From contig JALWSI010000231.1 of NCBI GenBank assembly GCA_027080315.1, positions 5,875-11,108 on the forward strand: 5,234 nt of DNA. Direction: 5' to 3'. The notes beneath the pieces were generated by a model. The model had not been told where the DNA came from. It saw only the letters and a list, made by a program, of their open reading frames with translations, and did no database searches. The first letter of the stretch is position 1. Every line of letters starts with the position of its first letter. Origin of the DNA: a bacterium. Lineage in GTDB: Bacteria; Thermosulfidibacterota; Thermosulfidibacteria; Thermosulfidibacterales; JALWSI01. Shown in pieces: positions 1,371-3,890 of this stretch. Both the position numbers and the translations under genes were made by a program.

Positions 1371-2249
1371 ATGAAAACCCTAAAATTACCATTTTGGCCT
1401 TTAAGTGCGGCAGATACTTCTCCTGCCCAGCGGGTTACTGTGATAGAGCCCGGCAGGGCCGAGAAGAACTACTGGAGAGACCTGTGGAACTACCGTGAAC
1501 TCTTCATCATACTGGCCTGGCGCGATATCGCCGTTCGCTACAAACAGACTGTGATAGGTGTGGCCTGGGCTGTTATACGGCCCTTCTTGACCATGGTGGT
1601 CTTCACCGCCATCTTTGGCAGGTTGGCCAAGATGCCCAGCGCCGGCAATTCCCCTTATGCCCTCATGGTCTTTGCAGGTATGCTGCCCTGGACTTTCTTC
1701 TCAACCGCCTTGGGTGAGGCCTCTAACAGCCTCATTGGCAACGAGAAGCTCATAAGCAAGGTGTACTTTCCACGGCTCATCATTCCCACCGCCGCTGTGG
1801 TGACAGCCTTTGTGGACTTTCTGATAAGCCTTGGCATTCTCTTTTTCATGATGCTCTACTACCGCTTTGTGCCTGGATGGCAGATCTTGCTGTTGCCCGT
1901 CTTCATGCTGCTGGCCCTCTGCGCCGCCTTGGGACCTGGGTTGTGGGTGACTGCCTTAAACGTTAAGTACCGCGACTTCAGGTATGTGATACCATTTCTG
2001 GTTCAGCTTGGGCTCTATGTCTCTCCTGTGGGGTTCACCAGCAGCGTTATTCCCCACAGGTGGAGGTTGCTCTACAGCCTCAATCCCATGGTGGGGGTGA
2101 TAGACGGTTTCAGGTGGTGCATTCTTGGGAAAGAGAGTCCCCTGTATCTGCCGGGTTTCTGCTTCAGCGTGGTGGTGATAGCCTTCTTCTTGTGGTTTGG
2201 CATAACAAGGTTCAGAAAGATGGAGAACCTCTTTGCGGATTTGATATAG
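1371..2249 (+). CDS. ABC-2 type polysaccharide export permease (Wzm/TagG-like)
   Basis: A 292-residue inner-membrane permease of the family that, with a Wzt-type ATPase, exports O-antigen, teichoic acid or capsule polymers. Family marks are the amphipathic N-terminal segment with LAWRDIAVRYKQT (residues 48-60), GVAWAVIRPFLTMVVFT (about 63-79), FAGMLPW (101-107), the SKVYFPRLIIP coupling-helix region (129-139), LNVKYRDFRY (196-205), SLNPMVGVIDGFRW (236-249) and the terminal FRKMENLFADLI. Six hydrophobic segments fit about 64-80, 97-113, 136-160, 170-195, 204-220 and 260-278. Length is slightly long (usually about 260-280) because of an extra N-terminus. No Shine-Dalgarno site precedes ATG 1371; an in-frame GTG at 1440, giving VIEPGRAEK, would match the usual family start but also lacks one. 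The ATPase gene that normally follows is absent; a DUF433 gene comes next. It is clearly richer in G/C than the downstream flippase. Confidence 0.92.
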   Translation: MKTLKLPFWPLSAADTSPAQRVTVIEPGRAEKNYWRDLWNYRELFIILAWRDIAVRYKQTVIGVAWAVIRPFLTMVVFTAIFGRLAKMPSAGNSPYALMVFAGMLPWTFFSTALGEASNSLIGNEKLISKVYFPRLIIPTAAVVTAFVDFLISLGILFFMMLYYRFVPGWQILLLPVFMLLALCAALGPGLWVTALNVKYRDFRYVIPFLVQLGLYVSPVGFTSSVIPHRWRLLYSLNPMVGVIDGFRWCILGKESPLYLPGFCFSVVVIAFFLWFGITRFRKMENLFADLI

Positions 2250-2286
2250 AGGGTTTTAAGGTTTAGAAGAAGGTTTGGGTGTAAAG

Positions 2287-2364
2287 ATGTTGAAGTTGAT
2301 GCGGATTGTGGTTTCTCTAACGCTGAGTTTGATGTTAGACAGTTGTTTTTTTTGGGAGAGTTAG
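2287..2364 (+). CDS. Possible 25-residue signal-peptide-like ORF (doubtful)
   Basis: The 124-bp gap between the permease and the DUF433 gene contains a 25-codon ORF from ATG 2287. The product starts MLKLMRIVVSLTLSLMLDSC: a basic start, a hydrophobic core and a Cys after LDS, resembling a degenerate lipoprotein signal peptide, ending FFWES. An 8-T run (2346-2353) lies just before the stop; moving the reading frame there does not yield a longer plausible protein. No strong ribosome-binding site precedes it. It could be the stump of a lost lipoprotein gene or simply chance. Confidence 0.2.
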   Translation: MLKLMRIVVSLTLSLMLDSCFFWES

Positions 2365-2373
2365 GGAGGAAAA

Positions 2374-2613
2374 GTGAAAACCTGGAGAGAATGGATTGTC
2401 ACGAATCCGTCGGTGATGATGGGTAAACCGGCAATCGTTGGAACCCGGATCACAGTGGAGCTCATTTTAGAAAAGCTGGCCGCCGGTGAAACGATAGACG
2501 ATCTGCTGGAAGCACATCCTCGGCTGACGCGGGAGGCTATTCAAGCAGCACTGGCCTTTGCGGCTGAGGCATTGCGAGCTGACGTGGTGTATCCCGTAGA
2601 GATTCCTGCGTGA
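2374..2613 (+). CDS. DUF433 (VapB-type) antitoxin, partner toxin lost
   Basis: A 79-residue DUF433 protein. The family mark MGKPAIVGTRITVELILEKL (about residues 16-35), then LLEAHPRLTREAIQAALAFAAE (about 44-65), is the winged-helix-like fold of antitoxins normally paired with DUF5615 PIN-like toxins. The GTG start at 2374 has GGAGG (2365-2369) 4 nt upstream, which is slightly close. Its stop overlaps a GTG that begins the usual partner, but that partner is cut off after 8 codons, so this is an orphan antitoxin. Compared with the second DUF433 in the window (2796-3035) I count about 24 identities over 54 aligned residues, so the two are not recent duplicates. It is likely a cytoplasmic DNA-binding regulator; whether it can neutralise the intact DUF5615 toxin downstream is unknown. 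Confidence 0.85.
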   Translation: MKTWREWIVTNPSVMMGKPAIVGTRITVELILEKLAAGETIDDLLEAHPRLTREAIQAALAFAAEALRADVVYPVEIPA

Positions 2614-2636
2614 AAATTTTGGCCGATAAAGTGTAG
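2610..2636 (+). pseudogene. DUF5615 toxin remnant, first 8 codons only
   Basis: A GTG at 2610 overlaps the stop of the DUF433 gene (GTGA), exactly as the intact pair does at 3032-3035. It reads MKILADKV then TAG. MKILAD plus an acidic/Asn-Val continuation is the typical DUF5615 opening (family form resembles MKILADENV; the intact toxin here begins MKILLDMNL). After 8 codons homology stops, and about 10 bp later a fragment of a four-helix-bundle gene begins. The best reading is a toxin gene truncated by deletion or replacement. Confidence 0.7.
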
Positions 2637-2645
2637 CTGACTCAT

Positions 2646-2725
2646 AAGATGCCGTTGTTGCTGAGTTGAAAGAGATATCTTCCATGCTCCATGGCCTCAT
2701 CAAATACTTAAAACTTAACCCTTAA
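2646..2725 (+). pseudogene. 3' fragment of an S23/bIVP-type four-helix-bundle gene
   Basis: Positions 2651-2718 match 3722-3789, the 3' end of the intact four-helix-bundle gene, at 66 of 68 bases. One difference changes Ser98 to Ala, the other is silent. Homology probably extends to AAGATGCC at 2646 with a 6-bp in-frame deletion. In frame it encodes DAVVAELKEISSMLHGL and IKYLKLNP, then TAA at 2723-2725, corresponding to residues 92-118 of the intact protein. An in-frame TAA lies just upstream (2645-2647), so it is not a usable gene. The last codons and the stop lie in the attached CTTAAAA array, as in the intact copy. Confidence 0.9.
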
Positions 2726-2741
2726 AACTTAAAACTTAAAT
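2707..2741 (+). repeat. CTTAAAA heptad array (block C)
   Basis: Five perfectly phased heptads: CTTAAAA, CTTAACC, CTTAAAA, CTTAAAA, CTTAAAT. The first begins within the coding end of the four-helix-bundle fragment, as the array at 3778 does in the intact gene. Confidence 0.85.
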
Positions 2742-2742
2742 A

Positions 2743-2769
2743 AAACCAAACAGACCAGATAGACGAGAT
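2743..2769 (+). repeat. Short nonamer array, ACCAGA family (block C)
   Basis: Three in-phase units: AAACCAAAC, AGACCAGAT, AGACGAGAT. It follows the CTTAAAA array after 1 bp and precedes the ribosome-binding site of the second DUF433 gene. Confidence 0.75.
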
Positions 2770-2783
2770 GAAAACAACCAATT

Positions 2784-2789
2784 AAGGAG
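2784..2789 (+). promoter_or_regulatory. Shine-Dalgarno site of second DUF433 gene
   Basis: AAGGAG lies 6 nt before ATG 2796 and fixes that start. It lies outside the repeat arrays. Confidence 0.75.
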
Positions 2790-2795
2790 AAAAAT

Positions 2796-3035
2796 ATGGA
2801 ATTTCCAGGGTTAAATAGAATCACTATAGACCCTAAGGTTATGGGTGGTAAGCCTTGTGTGCGGGGTATGAGGGTAACGGTAGGGACAATTGTTGGGCTT
2901 CTTGCATCGGGAGCCTCTTTTGAGGAGGTTTTAGAGCTTTATCCCTACCTTGAAGAGGAGGACATAAGAGCTGCTCTATCGTATGCAACCTGGCGTTCCG
3001 AAGAGTACGACCTGCTATTAGAAGAGGTTTCGTGA
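2796..3035 (+). CDS. DUF433 (VapB-type) antitoxin of an intact DUF433-DUF5615 pair
   Basis: A 79-residue DUF433 protein with the family signature DPKVMGGKPCVRGMRVTVGTI (residues 12-32, best seen as GGKP...G.R.TV), the hydrophobic LLASGASFEEVLELYPYLEEEDIRAALSY segment, and a charged C-terminus (EEYDLLLEEVS) likely to contact the toxin. The start at ATG 2796 is supported by AAGGAG 6 nt upstream. Its stop overlaps the toxin start by 4 bp (GTGA at 3032-3035), so the two are translationally coupled, antitoxin first. The expected role is to bind and neutralise the DUF5615 PIN-like toxin and probably to repress the operon. It is the same length as the DUF433 at 2374 but diverged from it. Confidence 0.88.
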   Translation: MEFPGLNRITIDPKVMGGKPCVRGMRVTVGTIVGLLASGASFEEVLELYPYLEEEDIRAALSYATWRSEEYDLLLEEVS

Positions 3036-3421
3036 AGATCCTGTTAGATATGAACCTTTCTCCTGCATGGGTTCCCTATCTTGAGGGGTACGGGTACGAA
3101 GTGAAACACTGGGGTGAGGTGGGCTCTTCCACTGCTACAGATGTTGAGGTTATGGATTGGGCGCGTAAGAACGGGTATGTTGTTTTCACTCACGATTTAG
3201 ATTTTGGAACCCTTTTGTATGTGACCATGGCGGTGGCTCCCAGTGTGGTTCAACTGAGGTGCGAAGACATACGTCCTCAAAGTGTCGGTGAGATTGTGGT
3301 AAAGGCCTTAAAGAGAGCCCGCCAACAGATAGAACAAGGGGCCCTTGTTGTGATTGATCCCAGAAGAAGCCGAGTAAGACTCTTACCCTTAGGTAGGAAA
3401 GAGTCCAGGAATAAGGCATGA
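3032..3421 (+). CDS. DUF5615 PIN-like toxin
   Basis: A 129-residue PIN-like (Mut7-C-related) protein, a predicted metal-dependent RNase toxin paired with DUF433. Visible marks are the N-terminal MKILLDMNLSP with Asp6 and Asn8, the GYEVKHWGEV strand (21-30), TATDVEVMDWA with Asp37 and Asp42, and FTHDLDFG with Asp55 and Asp57. These acidic residues are the expected metal ligands, so the active site looks complete. Then come VVQLRCEDIRP, SVGEIVVKALKRA and the closing GALVVIDPRRSRVRLLPL. The GTG start overlaps the DUF433 stop and no separate ribosome-binding site is needed. The C-terminal NKA and the TGA stop lie within a GCGTAAR-type heptad array, so the tail beyond LLPL may not be ancestral. 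The four-helix-bundle gene starts 18 bp downstream and could be co-transcribed. Confidence 0.88.
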   Translation: MKILLDMNLSPAWVPYLEGYGYEVKHWGEVGSSTATDVEVMDWARKNGYVVFTHDLDFGTLLYVTMAVAPSVVQLRCEDIRPQSVGEIVVKALKRARQQIEQGALVVIDPRRSRVRLLPLGRKESRNKA

Positions 3422-3436
3422 GGCGTAAGGGTTGAG
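3409..3436 (+). repeat. GCGTAAR heptads upstream of the four-helix-bundle gene
   Basis: Four in-phase units: GAATAAG, GCATGAG, GCGTAAG, GGTTGAG, ending 3 bp before ATG 3440. The first two encode the end and stop of the DUF5615 gene. They belong to the family seen at 996-1037 and 1227-1261. Conservation is weaker here (four units). Confidence 0.65.
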
Positions 3437-3439
3437 TGT

Positions 3440-3796
3440 ATGGGATATGAGTCATTTGAAGAGTTGGAGGTGTGGAAACGGGCGTGTCGTTTGGCGGTTT
3501 TGGTGTATGAGCTGTTGGGTAGATGTGAGGATTTCGGATTAAAGGGCCAGATGACCCGTGCGGTGGTGTCAATTGCCTCTAACATTGCTGAAGGAGCTGA
3601 GCGGGACAGTAGAGCCGAGTATGTTAGATTTCTGCATATTGCCAAAGGTTCTGCTGCCGAGCTGCGCACTCAGGTTTATATTGCCCAGCAGATTGGTGTT
3701 CTTGAGCCTAAAGATGCCCAGGCCGTTGTTTCTGAGTTGAAAGAGATATCTTCCATGCTCCACGGCCTCATCAAATACTTAAAACTTAATTCTTAA
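3440..3796 (+). CDS. Four-helix-bundle protein (S23/bIVP family, TIGR02436-like)
   Basis: A 118-residue protein of usual family length. Marks are FEELEVWKRACRLAV in helix 1 (residues 6-20), FGLKGQMTRAVVSIASNIAEG (32-52) with Arg40 and the near-invariant SNIAEG, then RFLHIAKGSAAELRTQVYIA (63-82), and a final helix AVVSELKEISSMLHGLIKYL (95-114). The family includes proteins encoded in 23S rRNA intervening sequences and is structurally related to Avd, the basic pentameric accessory protein of diversity-generating retroelements that binds reverse transcriptase and RNA. No reverse transcriptase, template repeat or rRNA is present here. The start at ATG 3440 follows a GCGTAAR heptad array with no good Shine-Dalgarno site; it may be coupled to the toxin gene 18 bp upstream. 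The last six codons and the TAA are made of CTTAAAA-type heptads. A near-identical 3' fragment lies at 2646-2725. Molecular role unknown; nucleic-acid binding is a reasonable expectation. Confidence 0.93.
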   Translation: MGYESFEELEVWKRACRLAVLVYELLGRCEDFGLKGQMTRAVVSIASNIAEGAERDSRAEYVRFLHIAKGSAAELRTQVYIAQQIGVLEPKDAQAVVSELKEISSMLHGLIKYLKLNS

Positions 3797-3852
3797 CTTA
3801 ACCCTTAACTCTTAAAACTTAAAACTTGCAACTTAAAACTTAAAACTTCTTG
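3778..3852 (+). repeat. CTTAAAA heptad array after the four-helix-bundle gene (block D)
   Basis: Eleven units, ten of exactly 7 bp: CTTAAAA, CTTAATT, CTTAA (5 bp), CTTAACC, CTTAACT, CTTAAAA, CTTAAAA, CTTGCAA, CTTAAAA, CTTAAAA, CTTCTTG. It is the longest heptad array in the window. The first units are coding; the stop is in the 5-bp unit. No hairpin-plus-T-tract terminator is visible. Confidence 0.9.
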
Positions 3853-3854
3853 TC

Positions 3855-3890
3855 AAACCAAATAAACCACATAGACGATACAAACATTCA
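3855..3890 (+). repeat. Degenerate nonamer array, ACCAGA family (block D)
   Basis: Four in-phase 9-bp units: AAACCAAAT, AAACCACAT, AGACGATAC, AAACATTCA. It follows the CTTAAAA array after 2 bp, repeating the order of blocks A and C. Confidence 0.6.

Follow-up and report, generated by a model that had tools for sequence, protein, structure and literature searches.

The 23S rRNA IVS of Leptospira and Coxiella carries an S23p/IVP open reading frame, and the protein family is shared with a gene in the DNA described here. The ends of the IVS are inverted, and in Coxiella variable heptads (GACAGAT) precede the reading frame (PMC4990558). The IVS sits inside the 23S rRNA gene, whereas the unit in the window (the whole stretch of 5,234 nucleotides that was analysed) and the units sampled from other genomes are intergenic, beside ordinary protein genes. 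Inverted, stem-forming ends like those of the IVS are found at about half of the other IVP loci but not in the window's unit, where the inverted similarity of the left and right arrays is at background level (score 9). The IVS literature that we found does not describe a link to heptads dispersed over the genome.

The arrangement also resembles the REPIN/RAYT systems, in that a gene is flanked by repeats and gene-less inverted pairs are scattered in the same genome, lineage by lineage (compare PMC3116915). As in those systems, the repeat flanking the IVP gene is dispersed in the gene's own genome. However, RAYT is a tyrosine (Y1 HUH) transposase, whereas the IVP gene encodes a four-helix-bundle protein in which only PF05635 was found, and the REPIN repeat is a palindrome, whereas the IVP repeat is a heptad array. 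The window protein is weakly homologous to Avd of the diversity-generating retroelements (NF033474, E = 5.6e-5, with a score far below the Avd cut-off), in line with the stated homology of the IVP and Avd families (PMC10053308). Such retroelements have a reverse transcriptase and template and variable repeats, whereas the window has neither a reverse transcriptase nor a template repeat. A classical transposon or MITE would be expected to leave a target-site duplication and an empty site; in same-site comparisons the sites had been replaced, not emptied.

In two Xanthomonas genomes 70 and 75 pairs of the heptad GGGAATC, a repeat without an explanation so far, were described, with no general link to mobile elements (Rehm 2015; PMC4692102). 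The repeat and its inverted pairs are identical to those that we find flanking the XCC0516-type IVP gene, which is not mentioned in that paper. Among the open-access papers that we searched, we found none that links IVP genes with dispersed heptads.

The duplicated gene end and its neighbours

The window belongs to a draft genome of 1.84 Mb in 253 contigs, and ten N (a scaffold gap, L039:5865-5874) directly precede its start. Its genes for sugar and export functions (ABC-2 permease, flippase-like Polysacc_synt protein) are broken up by toxin-antitoxin-like pairs and by arrays of 7- and 9-base repeats. None of the window genes that accompany the IVP unit encodes a transposase, recombinase or reverse transcriptase, and an Rfam search of the window gave no match to any known RNA family. 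The features around the duplicated block are:

2374-2613, + strand: DUF433 gene a, putative antitoxin-like (PF04255, E = 2.7e-23; nearest relatives outside the window)
2610-2636, + strand: 5' remnant of a DUF5615 gene, VKILADKV-stop (translation; comparison with 3032-3421)
2632-2650, + strand: junction zone with weak IVP homology, a 6-base deletion and an in-frame stop (alignment, translation)
2651-2725, + strand: 3' end of a second copy of the IVP (four-helix-bundle) gene, including the stop (66/68 identity; 95% over 75 bp to 3722-3796)
2706-2740, + strand: right-hand ACTTAAA heptad array of the truncated copy (TRF, 5 copies)
2745-2779, + strand: nonamer array ACCAGATAG (repeat family D1)
2796-3035, + strand: DUF433 gene b (PF04255, E = 6e-27)
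3032-3421, + strand: DUF5615 (PIN-like) gene b (PF18480, E = 4.8e-27)
3412-3437, + strand: left-hand G-rich heptads AAGGCRT/AAGGGTT upstream of the intact IVP gene (sequence; G-skew +0.71)
3440-3796, + strand: intact IVP/four-helix-bundle gene (PF05635, E = 1.5e-33; TIGR02436, E = 1.2e-34)
3777-3848, + strand: right-hand ACTTAAA heptad array of the intact copy (TRF, 10.6 copies)
3855-3880, + strand: nonamer array 3' of the intact copy (repeat search)

The genome contains one intact PF05635 gene. Its product lies above the curated cut-offs (115.6 bits against 33.8 for PF05635, 118.8 against 24 for TIGR02436), and the array itself supplies the codons for its final residues, LKLNS.

Aligned within the window, positions 2651-2718 and 3722-3789 are identical at 66 of 68 bases, the same count as given in an earlier note on this DNA, and the match reaches 75 bp at 95% identity (2651-2725 against 3722-3796). 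That note had described one difference as silent and the other as conservative, and indeed 2692 (T/C) leaves a His codon unchanged and 2660 (G/T) exchanges Ala and Ser; two substitutions are too few, however, to demonstrate the selection on a coding copy with which the note found them consistent. The genome-wide search with the 68-bp block that it had proposed returned exactly two copies with gene sequence in the whole genome (E = 1.6e-29 for the second), and the remaining matches consist of array only, without the gene. In viral contigs, no IVP gene tail was found.

The two IVP gene ends, 97% identical, lie 1.07 kb apart, each beside its own unrelated-looking DUF433 gene. Both are followed by ACTTAAA heptads and then by ACCAGATAG nonamers, and the array lengths differ between the copies by insertions and deletions. 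Identity to the intact IVP gene falls abruptly at 2651. Because the weak further IVP homology to the left of this position lies behind an in-frame gap of 6 bases and contains a stop codon, and the DUF5615 start next to it is broken, the block is a pseudogene remnant.

The GTG at 2610 overlaps the stop codon of DUF433 gene a as a 4-base GTGA, and the identical overlap is present in the intact pair at 3032. Since both this overlap and the sequence VKILADKV resemble the intact pair, in which DUF5615 b begins VKILLDMN, positions 2610-2636 form the 5' end of a second DUF5615 gene, which breaks off after about 8 codons and is fused to the IVP tail. This fusion is an addition to the earlier account, as are the weak homology left of 2651 and the differing array lengths. 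The order of parts is the same at both sites (DUF433, DUF5615, IVP, array). The adjoining DUF433 proteins, already said to be poorly alike, share 44% identity, and DUF433a is closer to a gene of the distant genome G038 (67%) and to one of G003, from the same order (51%). DUF433a thus has closer kin in other lineages than in its neighbour DUF433b, and the two operons look like separate acquisitions. On the same comparison a whole-module tandem duplication, already thought not to fit, is unlikely.

Heptad arrays in this genome and around IVP genes elsewhere

Composite arrays without a gene lie further upstream in the window:

313-470, + strand: GTCAGAA heptads, CTTAAAA heptads, nonamers (repeat search; recurs elsewhere in the genome)
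981-1081, + strand: GCGTAAG heptads, nonamers; after HicA (repeat search)
1212-1364, + strand: GCGTAAG heptads, nonamers, CTTAAAA heptads; before the ABC-2 permease gene (repeat search)

Such arrays recur at more than 10 places in the genome, usually ordered from G-rich heptads (GCGTAAG, GTCAGAA) through CTTAAAA heptads to nonamers, and many of them adjoin toxin-antitoxin-like genes (RelB-ParE, AbiEii-like, a PIN pair, MazF-like, HicA). The heptad flanking the IVP gene, counted as exact two-unit matches to AAAACTT, occurs 14 times in this genome versus 0-2 times in each of eleven others; genome-wide array counts rest on pattern searches. The arrays of the window have the polarity of the general IVP class. 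In gene-less composites of this genome, neither the inversion scores nor hairpin folding was better than in shuffled sequences. What the window's unit has in common with the general IVP-array class is limited to polarity, order and dispersal, and the inversion result given below is not claimed for this unit.

Some further observations concern the surroundings of these arrays. At L039:745-3970 and L042:2700-4800, composite arrays separate toxin-antitoxin-like pairs (RelB-ParE, AbiEii-like, PIN pair, MazF-like) like cassette boundaries, and an island in the relative G007 (L170) looks alike. Beside an array-rich region, reading frames with a repeated LEFETCSKGIKT motif (L042:5029-6163) suggest a CRISPR array. 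The ACCAGATAG nonamer, unlike the heptad, is common to other families of the same order (window 2745-2779; G007:C42:2306; G003:C20:543), and in L018 (G005) the IVP stop codon lies inside nonamers of the ACCAGATAG type.

In the tested cases, the heptad flanking an IVP gene is scattered over its own genome, with 14-188 exact two-unit matches, and hardly occurs in others. GGGAATC units flank the IVP gene of the XCC0516 family in Xanthomonas and Luteimonas, and the two-unit pattern is found 188, 86 and 140 times in two Xanthomonas genomes and one Luteimonas genome, and 0-1 times in nine other genomes. Two units of GGTGGAC occur 164 times in a planctomycete and two units of CAGTAGY 124 times in a deltaproteobacterial draft genome, each versus 0-1 in other genomes. 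The dispersed copies frequently take the form of inverted pairs without a gene, their arms separated by roughly 30-230 bases; gene-less inverted doublets were seen in Xanthomonas, Luteimonas and a planctomycete, but not in the window's genome. The gene-less pairs have ends that match the IVP unit, and in the planctomycete their arrays also bracket an IVP gene. Judged from its flanks, the gene of the XCC0516 type (structure 2GSC) in Xanthomonas and Luteimonas appears to lie between accB and accC, for biotin carrier and biotin carboxylase (L172-L175, about 2240-3060).

IVP genes commonly sit between inverted heptad arrays in other genomes. For 99 full-length IVP genes with flanks, drawn from many genomes (sample 1), the 250 bases upstream were reverse-complemented and compared locally with the 250 bases downstream, with a score of at least 20 as the threshold. 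The median local score was 19, and 47% of the 99 loci reached the threshold, as against 0.4% with flanks swapped between loci, 0.8% with displaced windows and 2.7% for other reading frames. When the scan was repeated more widely, 12 of 515 other reading frames scored at least 20, and 7 of these 12 were themselves IVP genes. A second sample of 72 named loci, collected with a single XCC0516-like query and ranging from Xanthomonas and Flavobacterium to Planctomycetota and Chloroflexi, also had 47% of loci at or above the threshold, versus 1.0% and 0.6% in the controls. The best period was 7 in 63 of 162 arms and 14 in another 44, and the left arm was G-rich in 93% of loci. In the window's order, eight full-length IVP loci scored only 8-17, and a partial IVP locus in G005 scored 31.

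The two arms also change together. G249 and G113, members of one genus, have a site between two transporter genes with flanks that are 97-98% identical; different IVP genes occupy it in the two genomes, and each gene has matching inverted arrays of its own. At one orthologous site (L294:13900-14031 compared with L299), a GGGAATC pair is present in X. arboricola and X. vasicola, and a GGGGACC pair in X. dyei. Either the whole unit was replaced in such cases, or both arms changed in concert. A clean empty site was found neither in G249/G113 nor in the three Xanthomonas species, where the arrays were replaced or changed. Partial copies occur as well: G007 has an IVP copy without its 5' end, 95% identical over 368 bp and 2.1 kb from the intact one, and G036 (L017:1400-2870) has a copy without its 3' end, consisting of the left array and the 5' half, 98% identical over 259 bp and 1.2 kb from the intact gene. 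The copy in G036 is the mirror case of the window block.

Proposed origin of the truncated copy

We hypothesize that the block is a 5'-truncated second copy of the IVP gene-plus-array unit, which is the probable reading of the locus. The 5' truncation most likely also took most of the adjoining DUF5615 gene. The unit would have been copied either to the end of a DUF433-DUF5615 operon or from it; a later deletion would then have taken away most of DUF5615 along with the 5' three quarters of the IVP gene. More generally, IVP-array units may be copied to new intergenic sites, lose their gene and persist as repeats, as REPINs do in relation to RAYT genes. The window block would be such a copy caught in decay, with the partial copies in G007 and G036 as comparable cases. 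The earlier note had proposed that the gene end and array either moved alone or were kept alike by conversion; a move of the tail alone gives way to the likelier copying of a whole unit that was then truncated, and conversion is retained as a rival.

Conversion or slippage could produce an equal identity over 68 bases. In a passive local duplication, slippage or template switching at the tandem arrays would, during repair, have patched the tail and array into a broken DUF5615 gene, with the IVP gene and protein uninvolved. The shortness of the block, its proximity to the other copy, its position next to an array, the array lengths that differ by insertions and deletions, and the presence of only two copies all agree with such an event. 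It nevertheless leaves unexplained why IVP genes are associated with inverted heptad arrays over many phyla, and why the IVP flanks match a genome-wide repeat, and we consider it unlikely.

Gene conversion would instead imply that old IVP copies stood behind two old DUF433-DUF5615 operons, and that the gene ends and arrays were kept alike while their neighbours diverged. This would account for the equal order of parts and for the sharp drop in identity at 2651. However, the two operons do not resemble an old tandem pair, since DUF433a resembles genes of other lineages more than it does DUF433b, and one of the two partners is a pseudogene; we regard conversion as improbable. An artefact of short-read metagenome assembly, conceivable in view of the many contigs and the N run just before the window, is very improbable, since two substitutions as well as array insertions and deletions distinguish the copies, a usual read is longer than the block, and the stretch between the copies is free of N.

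The IVP protein may bind the array as DNA or RNA and help to copy it, a weaker part of the proposal; the distant homology of the protein to Avd would fit a nucleic-acid-binding role. Movement of the arrays, and any part that the IVP protein has in it, is what we infer from these comparisons. The association of gene and arrays is no proof that the protein moves them, and another agent could carry both.

Across many bacteria, IVP genes lie inside repeats whose units recur as short repeats throughout the same genome, a pattern that suggests a little-known family of selfish DNA. We speculate, tentatively and as a possibility that we hold to be rather doubtful, that there is a widespread class of selfish DNA that has no known transposase and in which IVP genes act in trans: the four-helix-bundle protein would spread inverted heptad arrays within the genome that encodes it, many dispersed heptameric repeats in bacteria would belong to this class as members that lack the gene, and the window block would be a gene-bearing copy in decay.

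To our knowledge, a structure from the IVP/S23 proteins has been available since 2006 (XCC0516, 2GSC), but the proteins still lack a function; heptameric repeats are common across bacterial genomes, and there is no agreement on how they arose. The function of the IVP proteins and the origin of heptameric repeats, two old puzzles, may be one. On this proposal the IVP protein of a genome should bind that genome's own heptad, and loss of the protein should halt the spread of the heptad. If the proposal is true, it would describe a REPIN-like system built on a protein without a known transposase identity.
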